Origin: Owenia fusiformis
Taxonomy: Eukaryota; Annelida; Polychaeta; Sabellida; Oweniidae
Length of the DNA: 64,000 nt
Reading direction: 5' to 3'
Assembly (NCBI GenBank): GCA_903813345.2
Contig: CAIIXF020000009.1
Coordinates: 18,625,759-18,689,758 of the forward strand
Part shown: positions 10,319 through 55,669 of the stretch, piece after piece
How the letters are laid out: every line of letters begins with the position of its first letter
How positions within the stretch are numbered: position 1 is the stretch's first letter
Notes under the pieces: model-generated
Told to the model about the DNA's origin: nothing
Databases searched by the model: none
The model's input: the letters and a program-made list of their open reading frames with translations, nothing else
Made by a program: the position numbers and the translations under genes

Positions 10319-10384
10319 ATGGGAAATACTGACACTAAATTGAATTTCAGGAAAGCTGTGATACAGCTGACAACAAAAACACAG
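10319..10384 (+). CDS. HID1: HID1 coding exon 1 (residues 1-22)
   Basis: The exon begins at the only suitable ATG, giving MGNTDTKLNFRKAVIQL, the conserved family start with glycine 2 as the myristoylation site. It ends in phase 0 at ACACAG|gtatta. The 5' UTR and transcription start are not marked by any clear TATA box. Confidence 0.95.
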
Positions 10385-13300
10385 GTATTAGGTTTTTATA
10401 TGTTCTGTGAATCATTGATTGGGCTAGGGATCTCATTGGAGCCATTCCATACACATACTAGTGTAAATAAATCACAACCACGTCTCAGTAAAAAAATTAC
10501 AGTAGACTAGAGTAGCCTAGCCTAGATCTAAGTTAGGCCTACAGTGGGGATCATAAAGAATTGCAAAAGCTATGAAAATTACATGCTGTCGCACATGTAA
10601 TAAATTCTTACCTCAGTGTATTCAGTGCTCTATTTTCTCCGTCTTAGTAAGTCCAAATATAGTGGAAATTGTGTCCCTAATGACAAATAAGAACTTCAAA
10701 AGTTGAAGTGGATATTCACATGTTATGCCGACTCTTCAAATGTTGAGGTGATTTTATCGCCCGATTGCGCCGGAATGGAGGATTGGCTCCCAGAATGCAA
10801 CATGACACGTGCCAGCTTTCAAAATGCTGTTCCGCTATTTTGAAACCTGTCATGAGTAAATACGGTTAACTGATGTTGCATTCTGGGAGTCAACCGTCCT
10901 TGGATAACAAACATGGCGATTCATGAAAACATTCATTCGATTTGGTAGGGATTTATCCATTATTTGCAGGTATGAAGCTTTGGATTCATTTATTGTGCTA
11001 CTTTAGTGAACGGGAATTATTTTTCTACCGCTTGGGAGAGTTTTAAGGCTCTCTAGCCAAATGGGTTACCAAAATGCTAAAGAGCCTTAAATTTAAAGGT
11101 TCTTTAGCATTTCGGCTAAAGAGCCTTAAATTTTAAGGCTCTTTAGCATTTTGATAGCCAATTCTGCTAGAGAGCCTTAAAGGAATTCCAGGCGACAGAA
11201 ATGAAGAAATATTGCTTCTGGGACAAGATCAAACTTATCCCGTGCCAGGACTATAGTCCTGTAACGAGAGCATTCTTTTGCCTGTACGATTACAACTTGG
11301 GAGAATTATCTACGCCCCTTACACTTAAGATACCTACTTCAATAGATTCCTGGGTATTTTAGCATTCTTTTCGTGTAGTTGAATCCACAATTGTTTGGGT
11401 AAATCGGCAGAATTGGAACATTTTTCTTTTTCATTGAGAGATATTCCATCACTTTCCAAGATGGGGGTTGGATTTAAAAGGGGATTCCCCGTTTGACTGA
11501 CCCTGAAGTGGCCCGGATAACCAATAAATGGAAGAATTTGACGATTGAAATAAGTTAAATATTACACGCAAATATTGCGATCAAAAACGAAAATTTCGTT
11601 GTTCTGCCGATAAACCCAGACAATTGTGGATTCAACTACACGAAAAGAATGCTAAAATACCAAGGAATCTGTTGAAATAGGTATCTTAAGTGTAAGAAGC
11701 GTAGAAAATTCTCCCATGTTGTAATCGTACAGGCAAAAGAATAAGACGTTCGCAGGACTATAGTCCTGGTACGGGATAAGATCAAACGACTTTGACATAT
11801 TCGATACCCAGCCTATTTTGTAATTTAACAATAAGCACAAATATACACCACATTAGCAGATATCAGACAAATTCAAAAAGAAATATTTTTTGATCGATAA
11901 AATCACTGATTATTAAACCGGAAGTGTCTTCTCTGAGGTCCGCGATGAAGAAAACATATAACGATTTCAGTCAATTCAATTTTGCCGTCGGTTTAATTTT
12001 AAATGGTTCTAAATAATCTTCGAATGCTTACAATGACTTCTATTAGTACTGTTTTGACTTCCCCACTATCACTTTTTACTCGACTCATAAATTTACTTCT
12101 GGTCTACTGAGAAAAATAGAAAGTTCTAAAACCTTTTCAATATTCAGTCTAAATTTGGCTTTTTAAAGGTTCAAACGTTGACTTTGAATGGACCTTCATG
12201 CATGTATCGAAAATAGGTTCACCAGAGAAGGTGTAAGACCAGGCAATCAAGTAAAAATGTCTTGAGAGTCACATTTATTGATGAATTTGATGCTAGCCTA
12301 AAATTGTTGATACATGTACATACATGTACATGTAACAAATGAAGGACTTTTGAGCGGAAGTTTTTGCAAAAGTTTTGAAAAAATATCTCGTCAGATGGAA
12401 AATCCTAAAAACAGCATTGAAATCTAATAGGCAATAGATTTTGAAGTGTATTCTGTGATGTCCCCGGGCTGATGTCCCTGCATTCACGATAAACTGCGTC
12501 AAGATGTGCTTTATCTAGAATAAACAAGATCCTTTTTTCATCCCCAGGTCTTCATCATACTTTTTGCCATCTTAAAATGGGATTCTCTGTATTCTCGTGA
12601 CTATAGCAAAGCCAATACAAGTGATTAATTTCATTAAACATTAAACATTGATGATTGAGCGATGGAGCAAGCCCAAGAATTCTAGAAAAAACTGTGTACA
12701 TAATTTCCGGACCTCAGAGAACAAACTTCCGGCTTGTTATTCAAAATAAAAAAGTGCTCCGTCGGAGAATCGAGCCCACGCCGCAGAAGTGGAAAGCGAG
12801 CACCCTAACCAATATACCAGAGTGTTTTTCCATGATAGGACTAATTTTTTTGCAACTCTATAGTCATATACATGTGTGAAATTTTTAAGTGGCATTCTTG
12901 GTTGAAAAACTTTCGAGAGTGTTGTTTTATTGTTTAGATGACGAAAACTTCAATAAAAAACAATATAAACACTGATTATAAACACAAAGGCTCTCTAGCC
13001 AAAACACTATGTTCGCAGCTAAATAGCCTTAAATTTTAAGGCTCTTTAGCATTTTGGCATTTAGCGAACCCCCCCCTTTCAAAATCATGCAGTTTTTCAC
13101 CATTCTGACTATTTTTTGAGTGATTTTTGGCCAAATTTGTCAAAGTGAACCCCCCCCTAGAATTTTTTGGAAAAGTGAACCCCCCTTGGAAAATTGGAAA
13201 ATTCTGGCTACGGGCCTGATCGATGAAACTTTCTTTCAACTTGTCTAATTGCCAGCTTTGGTTGAGCAATTTTTGAGATTGGGTGCCTTTATACCATCTC

Positions 13301-16300
13301 GTGGAGACCTTCCCATACCCTATACTCGACGGGTTTACATCAGGGCTATAAGCTCAGTGATTATCTGGCCATATCAGTTCAGGTACATGATGCAAATTCT
13401 GTTCATTTCTCATGGCACACCACATATTTAAGTGAGACGCTGGTGACCTATTTTATTGAAGTAAAAGGGAACAATTCATAATCCATGGCTAGATTGCATC
13501 TTCAAGTTTCATTTGGTATGCAAATTATGATTTTGGGTCAAAAATTAAAAAAGCTATATCATTTTGAAAAAAGTGGCATTTTTTGGCCTACCCTGTATAT
13601 ACTATCCTTTGCTAGAAGGGTGAACTTCTTTCCACTCTACTATACTACTAGTCCCCTGATCTCACTTAACGAATCAAAGCCTGTCAGCTCTTAGAGGTTG
13701 TTAATGTACTCTGTAGTTCTCTCTGATTGGTTGAATGTCTAATTATTAAATGAACTGTTTTAGTTAGAGAAGACTAGATAATCTTATAAGCTCAGGGTGG
13801 CTACCTACAAGTAATATGATTTCTCTTTCTTTCAGCCAGTTGAAGCAGCAGACGAAGCATTCTGGAATCAGTTCTGGGCAGAGAGTGTCACAACAGTCCA
13901 AGATGTATTTACGCTTATTCCTGCAGCGGAGATACGTGCCTTACGGGAAGAATCTCCGTCAAATCTCGCCACATTATGTTATAAAGCTGTTGAACAGCTG
14001 TTGCGTGTGGCAGAAAACACATGCGGAAATGCAAGGGATGTGCAAATAGGTACTGTCATGATGAATGAAAATTACCAGTTTCCTTAACATCAGGCAACAG
14101 CAATTTTCTCTGGTTGTTTTTACCTTTGCTTTGAAGAATTTTTCTAGTGGCCCCAAAAAGTTGGCCTTTTTTGTCAATACTGGGCATTTTAAGACCTTAT
14201 TTTTTAATTTTAGGTCAAATTTTGAAGAAAATAGGCCTCAAAATTTCAAAATTTGGGCCCATTTTTTAGTTTTAGGGGCCCAAAGGGCGGAAGTTTTTTT
14301 CTTAGACCTGAAATTTAGCCCCCCCCCTTGTTGGGTCGCAGATCCGCCCCTGCATATTGCTTTGGTCTCATGTCGACCAAAATATGAACAAAATATGAAT
14401 ATGAAATATGTTAATTCCAGCTTTAAATTGTGTTCGACTCTTGACGAGAATCCTCCCCTATATATTTGAGGACCCTGATTGGAGGGGGTTTTTCTGGTCG
14501 ACGCTTCCTGGCCAATCAGAGGAGGGCATGGATGTAAGTACATGTAGTGATATATATTTTTCCCATATAAGTCATCTCTGTTCCTCACACTCATTCAAAG
14601 TTGACTATCACACGATTATGATTTAATGAAATCCATTGAACATCTTTATCTAAATCATATGTTTTGTTAGGCTTTATAAAGCAATCTGTTTTTTATAAAA
14701 ACATGAGTAAATCAAGGTGTATTTTCCTATTAAATTATTTTGGAACATATTTTGATGGAGAAGCTGGATTCGAGAGTTCTGAATGTTTCAGAAGCTTGTA
14801 TTTATTGATTTTCTGATTGGTTGATTTTTTGATTGACATAACAATAATAGTACTTATTGGATATTTCAGAATGCCACACCAGCTTTAGCACAATCATTAC
14901 TCAGTGCATTGGGGGTAAGTAGCACAATCATTTATTAGCACAATAGGAGTAAGAAGCACAACAGTGTATCTGTATCTATAAATAAATATATTATTCGTTT
15001 TACAATATTTTCATATCTAATTTTTACATGTTTTGAAAGGGGACCAAAATTTGCGTCAAAGTGAAATAATATTAGCAAAAATATGATGCTATCTATATGT
15101 TTAGGAGTTGTAAAGTAAAAAAAAGTATTTTATGATTTTGTAAAAGATCAGCTTTTTCTTCCAGGATTTGTTGTTTTGTCCAGACTTTACAGTTCAAAGT
15201 AACAGAAAGGCAGGCCCAGTAAGTATACGTACCTTTTTGTTAAAATATGACAATATGAAAATACATGTATATTCTTTGTACACATGGAATCTAATCGTTG
15301 TGAACTACAGATAGTGAATAACATTTGGGCAATGGAGTATATTATAATTGATTGATTTTGTTTCTAAGACCAATAACGTATCCTATAGATGAAGGCATTA
15401 TATGTTTTGAATTTTTAACCCTTATCCCAAAGCTCTTTTGAAGTTCTCATGCTGTCATTTTCATTTCTTAAAAAATAATTCTAAACCCTCATTCCTGACA
15501 ATAAATTTTTTATCTGGCAATAAATGTTTTTTCTTCCAGGACAACCCAGAGGAACTGGCTTCCTTAGATAGCTGTGAATATAATAAATGTTTTTTCTTCC
15601 AGGACAACCCTGAGGAGCTGGCTTCCTTAGATAGCTGTGAATATAATAAATGTTTTTTTCTTCCAGGACAACCCAGAGGAACTGGCTTCCTTAGATAGCT
15701 GTGAATATAATAAATGTTTTTTTCTTCCAGGACAATCCCGAGGAGCTGGCTTCCTTAGATAGCTGTGAATATAATAAATGTTTTTTCTTCCAGGACAATC
15801 CCGAGGAGCTGGCTTCCTTAGATAGCTGTGAATATAATAAATGTTTTTTTCTTCCAGGACAACCCAGAGGAACTGGCTTCCTTAGATAGCTGTGAATATA
15901 ATAAATGTTTTTTTCTTCCAGGACAATCCCGAGGAGCTGGCTTCCTTAGATAGCTGTGAATATAATAAATGTTTTTTCTTCCAGGACAATCCCGAGGAGC
16001 TGGCTTCCTTAGATAGCTGTGAATATAATAAATGTTTTTTTCTTCCAGGACAATCCCGAGGAGCTGGCTTCCTTAGATAGCTGTGAATATAATAAATGTT
16101 TTTTCTTCCAGGACAACCCCGAGGAGCTGGCTTCCTTAGATAGCTGTGAATATAATAAATGTTTTTTCTTCCAGGACAACCCAGAGGAGCTGGCTTCCTT
16201 AGATAGCTGTGAATATAATAAATGTTTTTTCTTCCAGGATAACCCTGAGGAACTGGCTCCCTTAGATAGCTGTGAATATAATAAATGTTTTTCTTCCAGG

Positions 16301-18272
16301 ACAACCCTGAGGAACTGGCTTCCTTAGATAGCTGTGAATATAATAAATGTTTTTCTTCCAGGACAACCCCGAGGAGCTGGCTTCCTTAGATAGCTGTGAA
16401 TATAATAAATGTTTTTTCTTCCAGGACAACCCAGAGGAACTGGCTCCCTTAGATAGCTGTGAATATAATAAATGTTTTTTTCTTCCAGGACAACCCAGAG
16501 GAACTGGCTTCCTTAGATAGCTGTGAATATAATAAATGTTTTTTTCTTCCAGGACAATCCCGAGGAGCTGGCTTCCTTAGATAGCTGTGAATATAATAAA
16601 TGTTTTTTCTTCCAGGACAATCCCGAGGAGCTGGCTTCCTTAGATAGCTGTGAATATAATAAATGTTTTTTTCTTCCAGGACAACCCAGAGGAACTGGCT
16701 TCCTTAGATAGCTGTGAATATAATAAATGTTTTTTTCTTCCAGGACAATCCCGAGGAGCTGGCTTCCTTAGATAGCTGTGAATATAATAAATGTTTTTTC
16801 TTCCAGGACAATCCCGAGGAGCTGGCTTCCTTAGATAGCTGTGAATATAATAAATGTTTTTTTCTTCCAGGACAATCCCGAGGAGCTGGCTTCCTTAGAT
16901 AGCTGTGAATATAATAAATGTTTTTTCTTCCAGGACAACCCCGAGGAGCTGGCTTCCTTAGATAGCTGTGAATATAATAAATGTTTTTTCTTCCAGGACA
17001 ACCCAGAGGAGCTGGCTTCCTTAGATAGCTGTGAATATAATAAATGTTTTTTCTTCCAGGATAACCCTGAGGAACTGGCTCCCTTAGATAGCTGTGAATA
17101 TAATAAATGTTTTTCTTCCAGGACAACCCTGAGGAACTGGCTTCCTTAGATAGCTGTGAATATAATAAATGTTTTTCTTCCAGGACAACCCCGAGGAGCT
17201 GGCTTCCTTAGATAGCTGTGAATATAATAAATGTTTTTTCTTCCAGGACAACCCAGAGGAACTGGCTCCCTTAGATAGCTGTGAATATAATAAATGTTTT
17301 TTCTTCCAGGACAACCCAGAGGAGCTGGCTTCCTTAGATAGCTGTGAATATAATAAATGTTTTTTCTTCCAGGACAACCCAGAGGAACTGGCTCCCTTAG
17401 ATAGCTGTGAATATAATAAATGTTTTTTCTTCCAGGACAACCCTGAGGAGCTGGCTCCCTTAGATAGCTGTGAATATAATAAATGTTTTTTCTTCCAGGA
17501 TAACCCCGAGGAACTGGCTTCCTTAGATAGCTGTGAATATATATGGGAGGCAGGGGTTGGATTTGCTCATTCTCCTGCAATCAACCTAACACATGACTCT
17601 AATAGAGCAGAAATCCTCAAACTGATATTAACATGTTTCTCAGAAACAATGTATCTTCCTCCCGCAGGTCAGTGGTTTATTATGGAAAACTGTAAAATCC
17701 TTTTTGTTGCATTTTAAATAATCCAAGCCTTATTTGAATGTCTCTGTTTTTAAGATAAGTTCAATAAACCATAATTTTTGGCGAAGAGAGTACCTGACAT
17801 GATGCTTGCTCACTTTATTCCTTGTAGTATGTAGATTCCTCTTAAATTCAATCTCATGCATATTTATGATTTTAGCTGAAGCCCATGACAAAAAGAATCT
17901 TTGGATTCAGTACCTGACATCCACAGAAAATAGGTTAGTTATATATAGCACTCATCATGTTATAGCACATATAATGTGTTTTCTCACTTTTGCTTAGTTG
18001 CAAAGAGGAAGTAGTATCAGAGATTTAAATATACAACTTTGTCCAAAAATTGTAACCTTTTCATCAATCAAAAGAAATAAAATCAATGCATTGTGCATCT
18101 TCTATAAAAAGCCTGTCACATTCATGCATTAAACTAGCCAATGTTTGGTATTATTGCTCAGGTCTGAAGTTACAAGTTCTAGGAAGAGAACATAAGCCTT
18201 TTTAGCTCACATGGTGAGCTTTTGCAATCGCTCACTTGTCTGTCCGTCCATCCATCCATCCGTCCGTCCGTC

Positions 18273-18303
<31 letters not shown>

Positions 18304-21300
18304 CCGTTAACAATAGTGGCACGTTTTAAAACCTCTGTCGATAGGATTCCTGTTTTAAGTTATTTCTGTTCAACATCAATACAGAAAACTCCCCTATGAC
18401 TCCTGGTTCAAAAGCTCGCCTATTTTCAAAATGCCCGCCATTTTTGTCTTGCGAAATTCACTTTTGACCCATTTCCTAGCTTTACAAATAATTTCAGGTG
18501 GCCTACATTGTAAAAATCCATGTCAATGTAAAGAGTAGATATATGAAATAATTTTGTTACAAAAATCAGCAAAAAATTATATCCATTTTTTTTATTTTCA
18601 GCCATTTTAGTTAACATTGATTTGTCCATCTGTCTTGCAAAATCCACTTTGGACCATTGGCCTTAAACCCTCTGTCAATAGGATTCCTGTTTTAAGTTAA
18701 TTTTGTTCAACATCAATACAAAAAACTCTCATATGACTCTTGGTTCAAAAGCTAGCCTATTTTCAAAATAGTCGCCATTCTTGTCTCGCGAAATTCACTT
18801 TTGGCCCATTTCCTAGCTTTACAAATAATTTCAGCTGTCCTGCATTGTAAAAAGCCATGTCACTGTAAAGAGTAGTTGTATGAAATAATTTTGTTCCAAA
18901 AAATCGGCAAAATATTATATCAGTTTTTTTTATTTTCAGCCATTTTAGTTTACATTGATTCGTCCAACTGTCTCTCAGTCAGTCCAAAATAGTGGCAAGT
19001 TTTAAACCTCTGTCAACACTTTTTAAATCCTCTGTAGATAGGAATCCCGATTTAAAATATTTTTGTTCAACATCAATAAAGAAAAAAAAACTGTGACTCC
19101 TGCTTCAAAATCTCGCCTATTTTCAAAATGGCCACCATTTTTGTCTCGGGAAATTCACTTTTGGCCCATTTCCAAGCTTTACAAATAAGTTCAGGTGTCC
19201 TGCATTGTAAGAAGCCGTGTCTTTGTAAAGAGTAGTTGTATGAAATAATTTTGTCACAAAAAATCTGCAAAAAATTATACCCGTCTTTTTTATTTTCACT
19301 TTTGAGCAACACCATGTGAGCCCAGTACCCACGGTACTAATTTTTTACAAATAATACGCTAAGAGTCACTTACAATTTTGAATTCTAAAACCGTGAACAT
19401 TTGAAAATAAGTTCTGATATTTCTGACTAGTTATCTTATTTAATTTTTCTTTACTATATCCATATGATTTCTCTGATTCATTTGTGTAAACTTGAAATAA
19501 GTTGTAATTCCTCATTTTCTTTTTTCAGACACGCTTTACCCCTCTTCACATCCCTACTGAACATTGTGTGTGCCTATGACCCAGTTGGATATGGTGTCCC
19601 CTACAATCACCTAATGTTTAATGACTCCAGGGAGCCATTAGTAGAAATAGCACTTCAGGTAAGCTCATAAATTAACTTCTTCAGTGATATTTTGAAAGAT
19701 TTGAGAGGAATCCTCTGTTTTATGTGTAAATAAGCGATGGACATATAAATAAAACATAATCCATAAATAAAATGGAATAATGTGTCTTTATGTTATTGTA
19801 CACTGGCATAATCTTTGTGTACAACCTCAACTTCTAATCACTTCTAGGTCAACAGTTAGGGTGGATTAAAACACATATGTGTGTCATAGGAAATGACCAA
19901 CATCTTCAGTCTACACAGATAGGCAAAAAATAATTGGTTCGATCAACTCAAGAAGTCAAGAAAACAAATACGGGGATTAAATATCAGACAAAGATCTCAC
20001 ATGTTATGTATAAAGGCCTTAAAGGGACTTATCATGGCAAAATTCAAACATTTAAGACTTATAACATGAAAATAACCTTGTCACATATGTATTGTATGTC
20101 ACTTTTACATATATTGTAGGTATTATGTGTCACATTAGAGAATGAGAATGCAGAGAAAACACAGGACCAAGACAAAGATGCTGGTGGAGATTGCATTACA
20201 TCAGATAATCTATTTGTCAACTACCTTTCCCGTATACATAGAGAAGAGGTGAGTTAAGAGAAAATAATGATTTGAAGAATATTGCCCAAATGTCAAAATA
20301 CGCAATATGTTGAATCTACACTTGTTTTCATGGTGTGTTTTGAGTAATTTAAAGCACCATACTAACCTAGCTCTATTTTCGCATGTTCACACCATTCCAT
20401 TGGAAATTTTTAATCCATCTTAGAACATAAGGTTCCAAAATTGTCACTTTTACCCAATTATAAGTTATGATCTTTACTTCTACATGTCTGAAAGATAATA
20501 TTATACAAGATGCATTATTCGAAAACCAGTCTTTTAGAAAAAATTTGTGAGGAAATGCATTTGAATTCAATCATGAAATGTTGGCGTGAAAGAAAATAGA
20601 AAATATAACATTGTTAATCCATTATTAGTTTAATTGATTTTGTGTTTTTGACCACAGGACTTCCAATTTATCCTACATGGGATAACACGATTATTGAATA
20701 ACCCCCTTGTACAAACCTACCTGCCAGGATCAACAAAGAAAGTGCAATTTCACCAAGAATTACTGGTGCTCTTCTGGAAGACGTGCGACATTAACAAAGT
20801 AAGTTGTAAATAAATATATTTAAATTGAACACAACACTGAAAAGTAATGAATGTCCAGAAATAATTTTGAATAACTTCGACATGATAACTCTTCTAAATG
20901 TAAGACTTCTTTACTTAAAGATCTATTTTAATTGTGGATTCAATTTTATTTATTAAAAATATGTGATGGATATGAATTTTTGCTAACATTTTTTGTATCT
21001 TAGTCATGTTCCATGTTATAATGTTTATGTCTGTTTATACACTCTCTTTCAGAAATTTATGTTCTATGTCTTAAAAAGTAGCGACGTTTTAGAAATGCTG
21101 ATACCTATATTGTATCATTTAAATGATGCTCGGGCTGACCAGTGTAAGTTGAAATGATGATTATGACATCACAATGATGGCTATGACATCACAAGGTTTC
21201 ACGTCGTATAAGTTGTGATGTGTGAAAGCAAATTATAATTCATGTTTATACATTTATTTATAGTAAATATAATGCATTTTAACATTCTGATCTCAGGTGA

Positions 21301-43557: not shown

Positions 43558-46500
43558 TTAAAATGTTGTGCAAGAGGGGATGTTTGACCACAAGATCAGA
43601 GTCATCCTGACTTGTCTTAGCCAGTGACTGTATAGTGAATGTTCAGTTTACTCTTGAGGAGAGGTTCAAGTTTATTAATAGCCTCTACACTTAGTGCTTA
43701 GTCTAATAAGAAGAGAAAATTCCTGCCATATACAGTTTGAATAAAACACATGCAGACGCCTCTAATTGTCATTGATTTACGCCAATTCCTTACCATATTT
43801 GGCAAGAAAATTTTGCAAAAATGCACCCGTGTTACATATACTACTGCAACGGAATATAAGCTACTTGTTTTTGAATCAACAACCTTCATAGTAAAGTATG
43901 GATATCTTTAAAGTACATGGTACATGTGCTAGTCAGTTTTATGGTAGCTATATATTTTCTTTTGAAGCATCTGATATTATCGCATTCTTTCTTTTCAATT
44001 AAATTGAGCATTTGAGGAATGTCTTGGAAATATGAGGATATTGTACATATTTCTAAATAAATGTTTTGAATGCATGTAATTTAGTATATTAAGATGTCAG
44101 GTTTCAAACTAAAACATGTTGTTGATGAACAAAGAGGGGGGGGGGGGGTAGGTAAGGGTTTTAAAGACTTCTCCTTTGGAAGAACTAAAGAACCACACTT
44201 GTAAAAATTAAATGGAAAAACAGATTTGCTTAGGGTTTCTTCTTGAGTTTAGCTGTTTCTCATGTCTATTGTTTTTCATGTTGACATGAAGTACTATTGT
44301 ATGATCTCATACAATTTCAAGTAAAAAGCTCTCTCCCCCAGTCAGATACAACTCCTAATTCTTCCTCCATTGCATTTCTCAGTAATACATCAAGAACATC
44401 ATGCACATATCAGTCATTACAAAGTCTATAGAATATTGCCAATGAAAAGAAAATATGTGGACTATTAGAATGAGATATGGTATACATAATAAGGTGTATG
44501 TAATGCCATATTAATTATATTGAATGATTTATACATGTAACGGTGCTCTCGCAAGGAGATTACATATATGATATATCACGATGCAGAAATGCCATGGAAT
44601 AATGAGACCAGCATTGCTGAAGATTCAAAAATTGGAAAGAAATATTCTGCATAGTAGGGCAGATGTATATGTAGCATATGTTGTCAGGTAGCAAGATCAA
44701 TTAATAGGTACATCAAAGCTTGAAGAGGATGCCTGGTATTGGATTCAGATATTTACATACATGTAATGTATGTTTAATTGACTTATCAGTTTACTAGTGT
44801 AGCAAACAACATTATTGACCAAATTCTAACATTTCGGTATGATACAAGATCTATCATTTTATCACCTTTCATAACTTTTCATCTACAGTATATGAACTTA
44901 AGAAGGCCATTTATAAGAGATGGGGATCAGATCTGAAATACTTTTTAGTCGCTCATTGCCCTCCGCCCCTACAGTCTAATCCAGTCATTTTTCTCACCAA
45001 GTGTGTGCAGAATTATTAATATCAAATTCAAACCATAATTTGTCCAAAAATACAGTGTCTTATTTTTATGATTTTACTCATTTTCAAATAGGTGTACATT
45101 GCTTTCATGTAGGTGCAAGCCTCATCAAGATTCCAAGTAGGTGCAACCTTGGGTGCATTGCTTGTGAGATCACTGTGTACTACAAGATCATGTATAAACA
45201 GTGTCAGTAATTGTAACAGAGAATTCATATGAATGGCTAATTTTAACTGATACTGATTCACGTTGATGTTTATCAATAATATGAATATGATATGTATTGG
45301 ATTAATCCTTGCTCCTGGTGTAGCAGCATTAGCAAAGTCTACTTTGATGCTTCCCATGAGTGAAATATCATGGTTAGCATATGTTAAATGGCAAAATAAA
45401 GAGGAAATAGAGGAAGTAGAAAGGAATAAGATAAAGGCAATTCGTTTGTTCTCTAAATTACCAAAAATATCAGAATATTTTTTTATCATATTTCAAAAAC
45501 AATCCAGTGGAATAAATATAACTTGAGTTACGTTTTAACTATTACTTGTCTGCTTTCAACTTTTAATCCTTGATATATGGTTATATTAATTTCTAATATT
45601 TATTAATTAAAGTGTTTCTCCATAAGCATCAGGCAGGAGTTAGCTAGCAGCTGATAATATGATCATGTATAAATATGAATATTATGCAATGAACATAAAA
45701 AGAAAATCAATTCTGTATTATAGAACATCTGTACAGTACTATAATATAAATTAACCGTTAATCATGAAGTGTTCCAGGCAAATGCCAGGTCTGATCGTAC
45801 CCTGTGGCACACTGCATAGACGAAGCTCTCTTTTTTGCAATGGCAAAATCAAACAAGGGCACAGAACTATTAGCATATTCAATACCATGTTCTCTCTAAT
45901 GAGTGCATAGTTCCAATGAGTGCTCATGCGATTTTAACCTTGAATATGCTCGCATAAGAAAGCACAAAGTTAAATGCTTTAGTTTCGATTGTTTACATAA
46001 CAATATTGATTGATGATTCTATTTTATGCGGAGGGAGAAATACAGGAGCTGTAGAGAATGTAAACCCTTTAGTGATAACAACTAAAAAGATCATCAGCAA
46101 TATTTATTTTTCTAAATTTTTGTTTTTGCGCTTATTGGAATCTCAATATCATCCCCCTTTAAATTTCTATTCAGAACATTTTTCATAGGGGTAAAGAAGT
46201 AGAAGTGGCCAGACTCGCAAAGTAGCACCCATTCCCAGATGTGGCTATGTATAGGATACTGGGTAAAGCCTGATGATGGTGTACATGGCTATTGTCATGA
46301 ATGAAGACAATAGACTCTCAGTGTTATTAGTATCAAGTATATTATGAATGACTACATTCGTTCTTATATTATCATCTGTCAGTATGTATACACAAACCAT
46401 GTTGCAACTATTGAATGACTCACTTAGGGGTATATCATGGATATCATGTAATGAAGAGAAATGTGGAACAATACCATATTGTTCTTTCCCTATTGTGATA

Positions 46501-46920
46501 TTTTTTCATATACATTAGATAACTATCACAACTTGCAGTAAGACTGCATTAGTATATATCAGATATTTCTTTGTTTATACGTTTATTATTCAATTGATTT
46601 TCATAAGAACAATTTATAATATAAATGAATTAAGAAGTCCTATGATTTATCTGTAAATGTTGCATCTCCATGTTTCATTTTAGCTTGAATCGAATGCTAG
46701 GTTCATATATTATTCCCAATAAATATTTCATAACACTCTTCATGTAATAACAGCAAATATGATTGTGTAATATACGATGTCTAGATACAGAGAGAGTAAA
46801 ATATATTAAGATTTCACCTTTACCATGTTTTTTTCTCAATATCTCAAAAATTTTATATAACTCTAGGATTCTTTTGCATTTTTTTTTATCATTTTAAAGG
46901 TTATCTACGTTGCACTTATT

Positions 46921-48346
46921 ATCCCATCGAACGAAGTTCGGAGGGATATAGGGAACGCCTCCGTCCGTCCGTCCGTCCGTCCGTCCGTACGTACGTACGT
47001 ACGTCCGTCCGGGCAATAACTCAAATACCGTTGGCCCGATTTTGTTCATATTTTGTACACATATACCCTATGGGAGTAGAAGTTCTGCTCGAAAGCCGAT
47101 TTTCAAAATGGCCACTCATTTCAAAATGGCGGCCATTTTAGTGCCGAATTTACAGTAATTTAGGTGCAATATGTAAAACTGTAATAGCAATATGTTTTAG
47201 ATGTAAAAAAATTATATAGGACATTAATAAAGCTAGATATGTAGATATTAAAGAAGTACATGGCAGCCATCTTGAAAAATGGCGGCCTTTACTCGTTATT
47301 TTACGATTTTTGCTGTAACTCGAAAAGTAGTGAAGCGATTTTGTTCATATTTGGTATGTGAATACTATAAACATTGCACACTGTCTAAAGACACTTTTGG
47401 TAGAAGGTGGCCATTTTAAAAAATGGCCGCCATTTTGAAAAATGTCCGCCATTTTAACCTATTTTACTATAACTCGAAAAGTAGTGAAGCGATTTTGTTC
47501 ATATTTGGTATGTGAATACTATAAGGATGGCACACTGTCTAATGACACTTTTGGTAGAAGGCGGCCATTTTTTAAAATGGCCACCATTTTAAAGTATTTT
47601 ACTATAACTCGAAAAGTAGTGGAGCGATTTTGTTCATATTTGGTATGTGAATACTTAAAGCATGACACACTATCCTATGACACTTTTATTAGAAGGTGAC
47701 CATTTTGAAAAAAATTTTGAAAAATGGCCGCCATTTTAATGTATTTTATAATAATTCGAAAAGTAGTGAAGCGATTTTGTTCATTTTTGGTATGTGAATA
47801 CTGTAAGCATGGCACACTGTCTAATGACACTTTTGGTAGAAGGCGGCCATTTTTCAAAATGGCTGCCATTTTAACGTATTTCACTATAACTCGAAAAGTA
47901 GTGGAGCGATTTTGTTCATATTTTGTATGTGAATACTATAAGTAAACAATGTTTATAAAAATTACCCAAACTGAATGTTTTTGTTATGAGAAATGGGCAT
48001 ATAAAGATATTGTTGCATATGCAATTGCAGTAAAATTATGGGCAGCTCCGGTGGCTCATTCCTCCCGTTGCTATGACAACCATAATTTTTTGCCATATTT
48101 GGCAATGGGCTTGAAAATGGAATCAAAAGATGCGGAATTCTACACTCTATGTCTGTACCAAATTTCAGTGGAAATAAACAAATTTAAAAGAAAATAAAGC
48201 AAAAAGTAGCGAATATATTGCTCGGCCCTTGTATGGCAAATGGTCTGATGACACTTTTGGTAGAAGGTGGCCATTTTGAAAAATGCCTGCCATTTTTGCT
48301 ATATACTTTGTTTGTAAAAATGCCATCCATGGCTGTTCGATGGGAT
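46921..48346 (+). mobile_element. TIR element of about 1.43 kb made mostly of ATGGCCGCCAT-rich tandem units
   Basis: Ends ATCCCATCGAAC (46921-46932) and GTTCGATGGGAT (48335-48346). A CCGT/ACGT tract follows the left end (46961-47010). The core repeats about 135 bp roughly five times (47290-47945): AACTCGAAAAGTAGTG, GCGATTTTGTTCATAT, GACACTTTTGGTAGAAGG, then an AAAATGGC / GCCATTTT palindrome. ORFs inside are repeat artefacts. Confidence 0.88.
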
Positions 48347-51300
48347 TCGCTACGCTTTGGCGTTGCCGTTGTTCTGGTTTTATTTTATTCCTTGCTTATT
48401 CCATTTCTTTCCACATTATTTTGTATTTTAAAACAAAGCCACCACAACCTTTAACTCTGGGGATTTATTGATCAAGCTGCACAATTAATGCTGATTCCCT
48501 TCCATTCTAAATTTGTATACCTCTCTTAGAAACCTTATTAAAGATCTAGGTTACCTTTCAAGATTTAAAACTGCAAAGATTATGATGTTCGAGATGTAGG
48601 GAGTGATTAATTTTTTTCTAGGGCAAACCAATAAAGAGCTTAGGGGCAGTCCATCTTTGTAATAAAATATATGTGAATATACTTGCTCATTTTTTCCTCA
48701 GATATTATATGGTTTGAACTTACGCCTGGTAATATTGACAAGTGAGCTGTCAAATATGTATATTTTCTCTTTCCTAATGATTTGTCCTTGAATAACTTAT
48801 ATCAATATTTAAATATTTGATTCAAGTACTTATTTCAATCCTGTCTGAAAGGTTTGGAGTATCTAACTCAAGATTTGTCTAATTAGATATGCGCATATTT
48901 ATCCAGCTAGAATATAAGTACGTAAATGTTTGAATTATATGTCAGCAACAAATAGAATAACAAATGCCAAGTCGGTAAGTTTCACTCATATTCTTTCCTA
49001 ATCCTCTCCCAATATTTATAATTATTTATTCCTCAATACACGCTGCCAATTGTAAACATTTAAGCCAAATATTCATATAAATTGACTCAGCGTGTGCAAA
49101 TATCTGATAAATAAGATAAATGACAACCATCTATTGTATGTTTTTAGCCCAATGTTTTGTTAATTTTTTAACCAAATATTAAAGGCAAATTGTGGTTTTG
49201 TATTCTATTAATAGGGGCAAAGGCTAATATCAGATTTAACATCTTGTCTTTTTGAACTCCCGTGATCTTCCTAATAGTGTTTGTTTTATTTCACTATATT
49301 AGGACAGTTTATATTTGTAATGTCATCTACATCATCTTTCTCTGTAAACACTTAAGTTGGAAAATATCAACTCAATATTTTATCATGATTGTTGAAAAGA
49401 AATCAATTCTCTTAATTTATTTTACACAATTTGAAAATCAGTATTTTTTTTTATTTAATTTTTTTTTTTTGAAAATATTTATGACAATACAAGAACAACT
49501 TACTGTTCTGGGAATGAAAGATTAAGATGCAATTTTTCTCAATGCCACAACAATAACTGTATAAAAATAAAATACTTTTTCTTTTTTTTATTTACCTGAA
49601 ACGTAATGACCTTATCATAAGCTTATTGATATTTAACACATGATTTTCTGACACTGCTTCACTATTTAGAAATGTCAACTTCTAGCTGGAATATGACATT
49701 CATTGACTTTTTATATCCCTGAACATCATGGAGGTATTTCTGGAGAAAACAAAATAATGATGTTCACAAGCTTTTCTTGACTTTTTCTATTTGTGGCATC
49801 AGCCATTAAGACCATCTTCGTTCACTCAGCGCCCGACGTTCATCATGTATGCAGTGAAGACCGAGCGTGCGAAGATGCATTAAGACAGTTCCAGATAAAA
49901 ACAAGTGACCAATGATCAGCCAACTGCACTCTTTTTTCTTTGTTGGTTTTTTTATAATCTGACTTTCATATCAGGGTATCTGTCTATTTAAGATGATATG
50001 TGCTTTAATGTACACTCACTGAGAGCTGATAGCATTTTTTAATATATCTGTCTCAACAATGTCTAGACAAACACCATTAAGATCAGGAGATATTTCACAT
50101 TTCAAGGTGTCACATAAGAAGGATTCAACTGAAATTATTCCCATTATCTTGAATCAAGTTTCTTACCCCCATGATTTATTTTTCTAACAAAGGGTAGTGT
50201 CAGTCTTGTTCAAGGTCTTATTTTTATTTGAGAGACTGGTGCAGGGCCTACACGTAGATAGGTGGAATGTAATAATTGTTATAAGGGAAAGAATGAAAGA
50301 TTATTGAACAGAGAATTCTTCATACATACGTATTTGTGTAATAAAATATACTTGAACCAAGCCCTGATTTGCCCCCTCTCCAATTTTCCCTGATGTGCTG
50401 GGAAAGAGATATTCATTCAACAACTCCCCGATCTCTTTGCTGATATTGTTTTGACATGTTCTTCAACTGTTAATATTAACCTTATGGGTTAATCTGACCT
50501 TTCCTAATCCTTAACATTATTTAATCATGGAATCTTTATATTATAACTTCGATTAATTATTAAAGTAGAATGTTGCAGATGATCATTAATGATTCAATTT
50601 CCATTTATTAAAAGTTATTATCTCTATCAGTGGTTACCATGGCATTTTCTCCTTTGTTGTGATAGGCATCGGAATACATTCTCTCTAGTTTCATATGAAA
50701 AATGAAAACATGGGTAGTTGTGCTCTTGCTAATAGAAAAACCAAAACATAAGTTGATTTGAATAGTAATGTTCAAGATTTATGGCCCACAAGATATAAGT
50801 GCTGTACTCATGGGTTATTGAGGAGGTCTGGCATAAGAGCCTCTATTATAGCAATTTTTACCGAAGTCATCTTTTCCCATAGTATCATAGTTTGGTCATG
50901 TGACTGAAACTTCCAATCAGGAACAAGAATGAAATGAATATGGATCAAAAACAATGGACTTTAGAATCATCAGGTTCATTGTTCAGGAGTATACAGCTTT
51001 CTTAGGGTGTAAGGCGCCCATTAGAAAAATCTCATTTGGTTATACATAGTCACCATTATTTCTCTTAAAACTTTGATGGTGGTTCATGAATTCTTGGCAT
51101 TTCTTAAAAATTTAGATTGAACATTTCATGCTTATTTACTTCATTCCTTGCAAATTTCTCTCTTTATCATACTTCTGCATTTTAAACATAACTGGAGTGA
51201 TCACTGCCTGATGACTATTTTATTATTCTTTCCACATAGTATATCGTTTACTTCCTCCTCATTTTTGATGGCTTCACGGATTTACATTGAGATCTTTTTC

Positions 51301-51928
51301 TTTCACTCATTTACCAATCAGTGATTTCTGACTATGGAATTAGGACCATTGATTTTCTTCAACATCCTGAAAGATTCGTGATTTTATCTCAGAAGTTAAC
51401 CTTCATCATTGACCTTCCTAGTAATTGCCTCATAACTTCTTATTGATGGGTATTGAATGCAGGAAATTCTTATGTGTGTTATGTACGTTACTTATCTTTT
51501 CATGGTAAGCTATTATCGCAATGTGTTCTATTATTTATACTTTATATGGTTTTGAATTGTATATATTTATTTCAAATTTTCCATCTCATTGCAGTAAGTG
51601 GTACTTATTAGTTCCTTTCCTATCAGCATCTATAAGGCACATTAAGTTCAGTCACATGTTATTTGGTACAGTCTAGTGCAAATTAGTTCCATCAGGTGCA
51701 AGTTAGATTTGTCTACTTTAGTCAAATTTACAATCAATTATAGTTAAAAATGCAGTGTTAATTTTTATCACATTTTGAAAAAGTGCTATATTGCTTTCGT
51801 CTTGTTCTGATGGGTGGGCGGGTATGCAGGTGCCATATCAATCAATTTTTTATGCCTGAGTCACATTTCTCTAATTTTCAATCCAGCGCCAGACTGATTG
51901 AGTATTTTGCTCAAAACTGAATGAAATT

Positions 51929-52300
51929 TACCCTTTGCATTCGTTTGACTTCACTTCTTAAAAGAGAGCTTCGTCTTCACTCTTTCAAACTAAAATAATC
52001 CTGTGAACTCACCGCGCCAATCAGTGTTCGTCGGCCAATTTTGACCGACGTTCTTTATATGGTCATTCCTTCTGACGTCATCGTTGAGCCCAGAATTACC
52101 AATGATATGCGCATATTTAATTAGAACGCATTTGGCGTATGTTTCTTCAAGCTCTCTGATTGGTGGAAGGTCAGCGCGTAGGTCAAAAGTGATTTACCCA
52201 AACTGTCACCGGTTCCCGTCGTGGGGGCGGGGCTTAACTAAACTGTAATATGGTCTCTACTAGGCAGAGTGTAGTTTAACTAGACTCTGCACGCAGGGTA
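51929..52300 (+). mobile_element. Mutator-like non-autonomous element, copy B (372 bp)
   Basis: Same family and orientation as the copy at 41389, with the same CRE, CCAAT and GC-box set. Flanked by the 9-bp direct repeat AATGAAATT (51920-51928 and 52301-52309). The two copies differ by scattered substitutions and small indels. Confidence 0.92.
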
Positions 52301-53782
52301 AATGAAATTTTTAGCAACATACTCAATATTTTCTATAGAAACAGGCAAATTACATATGTATTCATAATTGATACAGTACATCGCACCAATATATATACAT
52401 ATATATGTACTTATGAGGGTATGTAATTTCATCAAATCTAAATCTATATGATATTCCATTCTCTATAGTATAATCTTTTGTATCTTAATTGGAAAAATTC
52501 CCCTCTGGCAGCTACTTTAACTTTTCAAAGTAGGCTAAATGAAAAAAGTATTCATTCATCTTTATTTTAAATGTGATAATGAAGTAAAGATATTCATGTG
52601 TATCATAAAAACTGGTGGCCATTATCTAAATTGCTGATAAAATGGTGAAATCAACCATAGTTATAGAAACGAAAATCAATTGTGAATAGACTGAACGTTC
52701 CCTCATAGAACTTTGAAGTAGGATTTTCAGACAAGATATTTCTATGAACTTGAAACGTTTCCGCTAGGGTCATCATGTTTGTTCATTACAAGTGATGTCG
52801 GAGTAAAATATGTGCTTTAAGGTGATTCTGAGGATACCTTATAAAACAACTCCTTAATTAGAAAATATAGATGTAATTCTCTCTACTGTTATAATGCCTG
52901 TCTGCCCAAAGTTTTATCACCTCATTTCTTCTTACAGACACGTGAAACATTGAAACACCTCATTTCTTCTTACAGACACGTGAAACATTGTAAATATGAT
53001 TGTATAAAAACAGTAAATTAGCAACCAGAGAATAAACTGCTTCATTTTCTAGCATTTTTGTATAAATTAGAGTATAGATTAATTCTTTTATTGACTCTTA
53101 TATATATCAATCTCTTCTACACATGGGTCACCGTTTATTTATTACTTGGTGTTTCTAATATTCCTTACAACCATTTTCAGTGGTTTCAATTTGCCCCCCC
53201 CCCTCTTGTTAGTTTTCAGATGCAATGGGAGCGCCTCTGAGAACCAAATAAGTAGTCGAAAGGGTATCTTAGAATTCTTCATCATATTTTGCGATGTGGA
53301 ACATAACTACCTCTGCGTCAGGGTATTATATATGACTGAAGGCTAGTATGCCTCTGCGTGGCATGTTACATTTGGGTCATGCATTACTATGTTAATTATA
53401 CATAATTGATGAAGGGATAATAAAGTAACTGACAGTTCTTTGACTTTAATACTATTATCTGCTTACAGTATGTGAGAAATTGTTTATCTTAATGCAATTA
53501 TAGTAATCATCTTGGTCACACTTCTGTCAGGTGATTATGATGTTTTGCTACTAATGTACATGAACCAGAAAATTTCAAAATCTTCTATTTCAAATAAATG
53601 TTAATACATTTATTAAGCAAATGGTTTATCATTATATTCAATTGAGGAATAGTATGAGTTAATCGACAGGTCGGTATACTAATCCACTAAGTTTTTCTTT
53701 TTTATTTATAATATTTAGAGTATTATCTCACTGTCATAACTTTGGCTTTTGTTTGGACCAAATTGGAGACCAACAGCCTACC

Positions 53783-53848
53783 TTTATTAATGCCTGGGTC
53801 ACATTTGCTCCGATCAATCGGCGGGGCGCAAGTGTGACCAAGGCATAA
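53783..53848 (+). repeat. Small hairpin element
   Basis: TGCCTGGGTCACATTTGC pairs with GCAAGTGTGACCAAGGCA around a CCGATCAATCGG centre. Confidence 0.65.
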
Positions 53849-55669
53849 GGTAGATTTCATAAGATATCTTACCACTCATATTTGCCATAAACATTTACCT
53901 TTAGGTACAGATCTGTTGTGTTCTGTTATGCACCCAGAGGGACTCACAGCACGTCTGTTGAACTATACTAATAACAGGTTCCATAACATGTCATTCCCAA
54001 TAGCATATTCCTCATAACAACGGAATAAATAGAGACTAATAGATAGTACCTGGATCCAATCATTAGCAATAATCAACAATAATCAGAGCCAATACATCGC
54101 CATTAAACAATACAAATAAGAATCTATTCCCTCGATGCTTAATTCCCAATTGCAAACTGACTGAGATTCATCATAAGGATTGAATATTAGCCTTGTAAAG
54201 CTTGTAGTAATTACACGACCAATGGCATTCAGTTCTCTATAGCTGTACTGGGATCTAAGAATCTAAGACTTGTTAGGATCTAGTTCTCTAGCCTCATTCA
54301 TCTTGTTTTACTCTGCTGAATCAACGGAGGTGTTTTTCACATGCCATCTTGTTGACAGTCATAAGAAAACATGACCTTCACAATTTGCCCGAATTAGGTA
54401 CGACTAGTGTCCTCTTGAACTTCATATCTTTAGTTATTTTCAAAAGGAGTGGTAGAAAAGGTTCATCAAAATTCGCCAGTTCTGCTTCTATGAAAGCAGA
54501 TTGATAATATCAGATTTCCTGTCAATGTTGAAGATGTTAGATTTAAAAAGATGACATGTATACCATGGCTGTTCTGTAAAAAAACTTTTGGAAACCGAAC
54601 TGTTTATGCAATTTAATCAAAAGTTAATTAAGAAAATGATTTTTGGTAATATTGATCATCATAATAAATCGAAAGTGATTTTTACTGACTATACCAATGC
54701 ACCAACTAATTGTGAGATCCTAATAGGTACATATTGATATAATAAGGTATAATGAGCTGCAAGAAAATAAGGCGATAATAAGGATGAATAACTGCACACC
54801 ATTTGTTCATACTTTGTTTATTGTGTCTGTCCAATATGCCTATGGCATTTAAAACTTGAGAACTGTGGCAGAAATGCATTAAATAATGAATACATTTCTT
54901 CATTTGCCTTTCATCATTGTTATATGTCTTCGTCTTGTGCTACTGATACATATGGTATACTGATACATATGGTGAACTGACACCCTTATTGGTAGCCAGT
55001 AAAGCAGTACCATTGATCCATTCCTATTTTAGTTATATATTTTGGATGCCCACGTTTCATGTAAAAATACAGTTAAAAATTTCTGGAATATTATTATATA
55101 ATATTTTACAACAAAGCTCATCCGTTGAAATTTTCTCAAACCTTGATAGTAGAAGTGCTTAATTTTTGAATTTTCACAATGGTAAATCGTATACAGGACA
55201 TGGTGCAATTTGAGCAGTTTCACTGTATACTGTTTTTTGCATAATCTTAAATCATCAAGTTACATAGGCAATAAAAATGAAATATGACTCGTTGTCTTGA
55301 AACAGAGCTTGTTCTATCATCATTCGAGAATATATCAAAATAGATATCAGCCAAACATATTTATCATTTCATATTTTGCAACTACTAAATCTCTTGGCAG
55401 TACATTCTATAGATACAACCTTGTCTACACATTATGGAAGTCCCACAGTGTGTTGGGTCTGGGATTTCTGATGAGATGAAAATACAGATATCTTGTTGAT
55501 GTCATGTATAGTTCATAATACAATGTACCTGTAAAAAACATATACCCAGAAAACAATGTAATAGAGGCATCTCTAGAGGTATGGAGAGCATATGAGATTG
55601 TTAATAACATACATGCAATGTATAAGCAATTGTATACAGATACACAATGCTGATTTTGGAAGAGAAAGT

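Follow-up and report, generated by a model that had tools for sequence, protein, structure and literature searches.

The HID1 locus

A stretch of 64,000 nucleotides (nt) recorded under Owenia fusiformis (NCBI GenBank assembly GCA_903813345.2, contig CAIIXF020000009.1, positions 18,625,759 to 18,689,758 of the forward strand), referred to as a whole as the window, holds the 5' half of the gene HID1. At the boundary between intron 5 and exon 6 of this gene, the end of the intron and the beginning of the exon are repeated in a long tandem array, so that a complete-looking 3' splice site (acceptor) recurs many times ahead of a single exon. The features of the locus, in window positions, are these:

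10319..20798, + strand: 5' half of HID1, from the start of exon 1 (MGNTDTKLNFRKA) to the exon matching Hid1 335-383
start 10319, + strand: coding exon 1, beginning with ATG (MGNTDTKLNFRKA)
13836-14049, + strand: coding exon 2
14421-14533, + strand: coding exon 3
14870-14914, + strand: coding exon 4
15165..15218, + strand: coding exon 5 (DLLFCPDFTVQSNRKAGP), with donor GTAAGT
15219..15518, + strand: non-repeated part of intron 5, containing TCCTGAC, a branch point candidate close to the consensus
15519..17541, + strand: the array, 32 tandem units of 62-64 base pairs (bp), from Tandem Repeats Finder (TRF) and a single-expression parse of the units
15625..17302, + strand: exact 822-bp periodic stretch, units 3-15 repeated as units 16-28
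17164..17477, + strand: units 27-31, whose acceptors would extend exon 6 at its 5' end in frame and free of stops
17499..17667, + strand: coding exon 6 proper, 169 nt, beginning in unit 32 and matching Pfam Hid1, with donor GTCAGT at 17668
17876-17933, + strand: coding exon 7
start 19529, + strand: the exon after exon 7

Exons 2-7 are each preceded by AG and followed by GT. If the last acceptor is used, the reading frame stays open across the joined exons 2-8, and spliced exons 2-6 score 212.3 bits against Pfam Hid1. More Hid1 matches extend as far as window position 31515. The naming of the gene and of exon 6 in the original prediction is borne out by the Pfam match and by counting from the ATG at 10319, a count that holds if there is no further coding exon between exon 1 and 13836. 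When the assembly was searched with the Pfam Hid1 profile, 10 exon matches were obtained, all at this locus (55 of 156 candidates scored). A second HID1 copy, or a haplotig with another number of units, was not found in the DNA and Pfam searches of the assembly, each of which has its limits. HID1 is found once and reads intact with the last acceptor (exon start 17499).

Anatomy of the array

TRF describes the array with a period of 63, 32.0 copies, 96% matches and a score of 3585, which places it far beyond chance. Together with the parse into 32 units, this confirms the 32-fold amplification of an acceptor and exon start that had been proposed from the sequence. Each of the 32 units consists of AATAAATG-T(5-7)-CTTCCAG and, directly after it, the 42 nt that open coding exon 6 of HID1. 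The run of T is six long in 18 units, seven in 10 and five in 4. The polypyrimidine tract and CAG are kept in every unit, and the AG ends of the acceptors span 15539 to 17498. The exon part opens with GACAAC, GACAAT or GATAAC and encodes DNPEELA(S/P)LDSCEY; the tract, AG and exon start of the original prediction were all present, although the exon part is 42 nt throughout and not 41-43. Unit 32 alone runs on into the remainder of exon 6 (IWEAGVGFAHSP...). A DNA search of the assembly with a 221-bp array query (13 places; the search skips some repeats) gave no match beyond the HID1 array.

Two other kinds of structure were considered for the array. Tandem duplication of a whole exon is ruled out, since the units carry 42 of the 169 nt of exon 6 and no donor. 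Recursive splicing or intron creation was rejected as well: the junction reads AG|GAC or AG|GAT at 32 of 32 acceptors and never AG|GT.

The array also has a block structure. The blocks 15625-16480 and 16447-17302 match perfectly, with zero differences, and a single duplication of a whole block, whether genuine or introduced by the assembly, could explain 13 of the 32 units. Sorted by T-run and five variable exon sites, the units fall into 13 types, all of which are also present outside the second block.

Products of the individual acceptors

With any of acceptors 1-26 (26 of the 31 upstream of the last), a stop is met ahead of the exon 6 donor. From the first acceptor the stop comes after 52 codons, as had been predicted for use of the first AG. 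Acceptors 27, 28, 29, 30 and 31 are open and in frame, adding 315, 252, 189, 126 and 63 nt, respectively. Counted from acceptor 31 back to 27, this amounts to 21, 42, 63, 84 and 105 residues, or one to five copies of a 21-residue repeat; here, too, the computed frames agree with the earlier claim. Exon 6 would measure 232 to 2128 nt from the earlier acceptors, and 232-484 nt from acceptors 27-31. Because one added 21-residue copy lowers the Hid1 profile score only from 212.3 to 207.1 bits, a protein with one extra repeat is not absurd. The reading frames fit copies that stay out of the mRNA for acceptors 1-26 and are uninformative for 27-31.

Boundary arrays elsewhere in the genome

The assembly was searched for paired polypyrimidine-AG signals with a spacing of 30-60 or 61-91 bases, and for paired AGGTAAGT signals with a spacing of 30-60. 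Eleven loci were retrieved, and arrays were counted only if joined to recognisable exons. Five loci (L002, L004, L007, L008 and L009) have clear boundary arrays.

Three of these lie on the acceptor side. In L002, a locus with Ig and caspase domains, three exact 67-bp units stand ahead of an exon HDSGIDEILPEYDVKKTGNMYIFYA... that is followed by GTAAGT; the gene, which resembles MALT1, is called paracaspase-like. L009 has about seven units of 100 bp ahead of an exon downstream of an SMC hinge, and L004 has eight units of about 53 bp ahead of a 173-nt open exon. At all three the exon-proximal acceptor gives an open exon. Stops are met from 2 of 2 upstream acceptors in L002, 5 of 5 in L009 (where six acceptors were recognised) and 6 of 7 in L004, a total of 13 of 14, and these genes therefore appear to need the exon-proximal site.

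The other two involve donors. In L008:1648-3347 (G000:C1), about 33 units of 52 bp repeat the 3' end of an exon with its GTAAGT donor; the exon matches Pfam Muted and runs into the first array copy. The copy number of this array is on a par with that of HID1, but on the donor side. In L007:982-2188 (G000:C1) both boundaries of one exon are repeated, with two units of 120 bp on the acceptor side and 18 of 54 bp on the donor side. No Pfam family was matched by the L007 protein, which looks tetraspanin-like.

Further repeats were seen during these searches. L001:3970-5177 (G000:C12, minus strand) has 49-bp units, about 25 in all, of two types that alternate with a period of 98 bp, and most of the units have TTTT(C/T)(C/T)TTACAG (23 found); a possible 34-nt exon follows, then GTAGGT. 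Since no Pfam family was found there, L001 is a candidate boundary array only. L005, apparently a repeat that is coding on the opposite strand, was left out of the count, as were L003, L006, L010 and L011, some of which have no clear exon. A 42-bp array of about 30 copies lies at L002:6393-7636 (G000:C4); the acceptor array of the paracaspase-like gene is 2.3 kb upstream of it. In the window itself, a 38-bp unit, CACCTCATTTCTTCTTACAG|ACACGTGAAACATTGAAA, occurs twice at 52918-52990; its second copy runs on as ACACGTGAAACATTGTAA, with AATAAA at 53031. The acceptor of a terminal exon may have been duplicated here into two units; window positions 45000-53999 showed no Pfam family on the + strand.

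The raw pattern counts were rejected as a measure of genome-wide enrichment, as backwards controls were also high and few sources dominate the matches listed. Forward and reverse counts were 43 and 37 for the polypyrimidine-AG pair at 30-60 (backwards control 2 and 38), 115 and 124 for the same pair at 61-91 (control 6 and 19), and 558 and 248 for the AGGTAAGT pair at 30-60 (control 340 and 268). Single arrays and one dispersed element prevail among the matches listed. That element, in which about 83 bp separate a pair of TTTTCCCTACAG-type motifs, accounts for most of the listed 61-91 hits and is probably a transposon family.

Variation among the units

The units of HID1 (15540-17541) vary at exon sites 3, 6, 9, 15 and 22. 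Four of the five are third codon positions with synonymous changes; the fifth changes Ser to Pro in 6 of the 32 units. Since one site has three states, six changes were counted, of which five are synonymous (P 0.001-0.009 for transition weights from 1 to 4); counted by sites, 4 of 5 are synonymous (P 0.006-0.026). The control arrays L004, L007, L008 and L009 show no such bias when pooled, with 9 of 29 substitutions synonymous. By array the figures are 1 of 4 in Muted (30 ungapped of about 33 units counted), 3 of 10 in L007 (18 units), 2 of 3 in SMC (4 ungapped of about 7) and 3 of 12 in L004 (7 of 8). The contrast of HID1 with this pool is only suggestive, because the test was made after the data had been seen and five arrays were looked at. 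The units are possibly recent samples of a functional exon whose changes are filtered by selection, which would explain the bias. Invariance of the intronic part of the units was also tried as a sign of selection and was not significant (P 0.09-0.16).

Choice among the acceptors

The original prediction left two outcomes for this gene, use of the last acceptor or a ladder of length variants. The first is better supported, indirectly, and the second is kept as a rival. In the order preferred here, use of the last acceptor comes first, the ladder second and use of the first acceptor third. The HID1 array is best explained as a tolerated 'mirage', the term for a minisatellite that spans an exon-intron boundary, grown by unequal exchange or slippage and spliced mainly at the last acceptor (probability roughly 0.78). 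This rests on the reading frame, the exon-definition architecture, the layout at the other genes described above and the lancelet cases.

In such a history, a minisatellite would have expanded across the boundary of intron 5 and exon 6 through replication slippage or unequal exchange, and every unit would thereby have acquired a polypyrimidine tract, an AG and an exon start that look complete. Unequal exchange is in keeping with the exact 822-bp block repeat. The spliceosome would mainly take the acceptor nearest the true donor, that is, the last. Intron 5 is 2280 nt long if it ends at the last acceptor and would be 321 nt long if it ended at the first; the intron downstream of exon 6 is 208 nt. 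Use of the last acceptor would be expected because it leaves a normal 169-nt exon between the 2280-nt and 208-nt introns. In human genes, the class with a long upstream and a short downstream intron is described as mimicking exon definition, with the sites closest across the exon favoured (PMC9225289). The splicing rules applied here are human ones and may not hold in this organism. The remaining 31 copies would behave as intron, any mis-spliced products of acceptors 1-26 would bear premature stops, and the array would be tolerated, not selected for.

Several observations weigh against this reading. Splice signals were scored with an ad hoc branch point matrix in 6 of the 32 units and compared with the five other HID1 introns. 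In pyrimidine content the scored units (11-13 of 17) lie within the range of the five other HID1 acceptors (8-14). The top branch point candidate, TCCTGAC (7.8), precedes unit 1, 41 nt before the first AG. Units 2, 14, 20, 31 and 32 score 5.4-6.0, slightly below the five other HID1 introns, four of which reach 6.1-6.2 and the fifth 7.8. These scores weakly favour the first acceptor. Scanning from the branch point picks the first AG downstream (PMC1431707), so with the best candidate upstream of unit 1 the first AG, and with it a stop, would be favoured. Where human alternative 3' sites lie 20 nt or more from each other, the upstream one is preferred overall; two long flanking introns are said to reduce that preference, in an account that does not state a reversal (PMC9225289). 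The synonymous bias counts on the same side, because it would not be expected of intronic copies that drift neutrally.

The first rival is an isoform ladder, in which acceptors 27-31 are appreciably used to give HID1 with one to five extra copies of DNPEELA(S/P)LDSCEYNKCFFFQ, inserted between FTVQ and LDSCEYIWEAG. Each of the five acceptors keeps the frame and meets no stop, the resulting exons of 232-484 nt are not excessive, and the cost of an extra copy is just 5 bits in the Hid1 profile. The bias of 5 in 6 toward synonymous change, whose P value depends on the assumed transition weight, would also suit a sequence that is translated. On the other hand, the in-frame status requires only six Ts in each of units 28-32, for which chance alone gives about 0.06 if units are independent (from 18 of 32), and the bias extends to units 1-26, which are unreadable in frame to the exon end. 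At the other acceptor arrays here upstream sites nearly always give stops (13 of 14), and lancelet mirages seem to be regularly spliced (PMC3087553). The ladder is considered unlikely. A broader version, with a copy-number-dependent ladder, protein-level selection as the source of the bias and amplified splice sites as a genome-wide source of length isoforms, is held to be just as doubtful.

An assembly artefact is likewise improbable. The true array would then be shorter, at about 19 units, say, if the 822-bp block copy is false, or at a still lower number. The absence of any difference between the blocks would fit an artefact, and lancelet PGBD5 repeats vary between assembly versions (PMC3902484). 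However, five contigs of 32-62 Mb point to a long-read assembly, whose reads would presumably span 2 kb; no unit type is confined to the second block, and independent arrays occur at other genes.

Least probable is use of the first acceptor in a sizeable share of transcripts, as an unproductive-splicing brake in which stop-containing mRNA lowers HID1 output: the upstream branch point candidate, the scanning rule (PMC1431707) and the stop after 52 codons would suit it, but the exon would be 2128 nt, when exons between long introns are efficiently included only below about 500 nt, and acceptors more than 12-20 nt apart are typically selected at the first step, each with its own tract and branch point (PMC9225289).

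The array also has a wider interest. With 32 near-identical acceptors set against one donor, HID1 is a natural experiment on the choice among equal 3' splice sites. Exon definition and branch-point scanning make opposite predictions for it, the last acceptor and the first. Known tests of competing acceptors have mostly used two sites.

Comparison with known boundary repeats

The claim that no such case had been described does not hold, since the kind is already published for amphioxus Adh3, globin, PGBD5 and troponin C genes (PMC3087553, PMC3902484). Mirages are known from amphioxus Adh3 and globin (PMC3087553). Those of Adh3, from which the name comes (Canestro et al. 2002, as cited in PMC3087553), have units of 10-72 bp with length and somatic instability, and their mRNA is reported there as undisturbed. 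In the globin gene BflGb6, the 3' end of an intron and the start of an exon are repeated in 6 or 3 units, depending on haplotype, of 150-160 bp and 81-100% identity (PMC3087553). Adh3 data and globin RT-PCR suggest that regular splicing is unaffected (PMC3087553). One authentic copy enters BflGb6 transcripts, and it would be the exon-proximal one. Lancelet PGBD5 has imperfect units of 60 bp (2 or 7) and 108 bp (3 or 6), varying by database version, and a troponin C gene also has boundary repeats (PMC3902484). In PGBD5, a doubtful extra exon was annotated automatically from two of the units (PMC3902484); gene predictors may treat other boundary arrays in the same way.

HID1 shares with the Adh3 mirages a minisatellite spanning an exon-intron boundary, and with BflGb6 units made of a 3' intron end and the 5' part of the next exon, a splice signal that is kept, and concerted turnover of units. 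In contrast to the longer and fewer units of BflGb6, HID1 has 63-bp units in 32 copies with 96% TRF matches, and it permits in-frame extension from five acceptors. It differs from PGBD5, with its 2-7 imperfect copies, in having 32. The arrays of the same genome (L002, L004, L007, L008 and L009) resemble it in that units span an acceptor or donor and one end joins an open exon; they differ in having 3 to about 33 copies of 52-100 bp, on the acceptor or donor side.

Adh3 aside, the largest published copy numbers found were 6 (BflGb6) and 7 (PGBD5, one database version), against 32 at HID1. By titles and the beginnings of abstracts, with few subscription papers covered, no boundary repeats outside lancelets were found in the literature. 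The genome is probably not that of a lancelet: its G+C content (33-36% and 35% where measured) and a contig of 62 Mb are unlike lancelets, which have about 41% and 19-20 smaller chromosomes. Profiles of the GFP and haemocyanin beta-sandwich families had no match in the assembly, a result that does not prove these families absent. Recurrence of the arrays in one such genome is a sign that minisatellites at boundaries occur more widely than one would gather from the lancelet papers.

The sequence features of mirages are all found at HID1: a unit that spans an intron/exon boundary of a real gene, an AG splice signal kept in the units, a unit length of 62-64 bp against published values of 10-72 and 150-160 bp and, provided that the assembly is right, turnover by block duplication and concerted evolution, as seen in the 822-bp repeat. 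Judged by these features, the array is a large member of a little-known kind, and what is probably new in it is the scale, the recurrence outside lancelets and the possible in-frame ladder.
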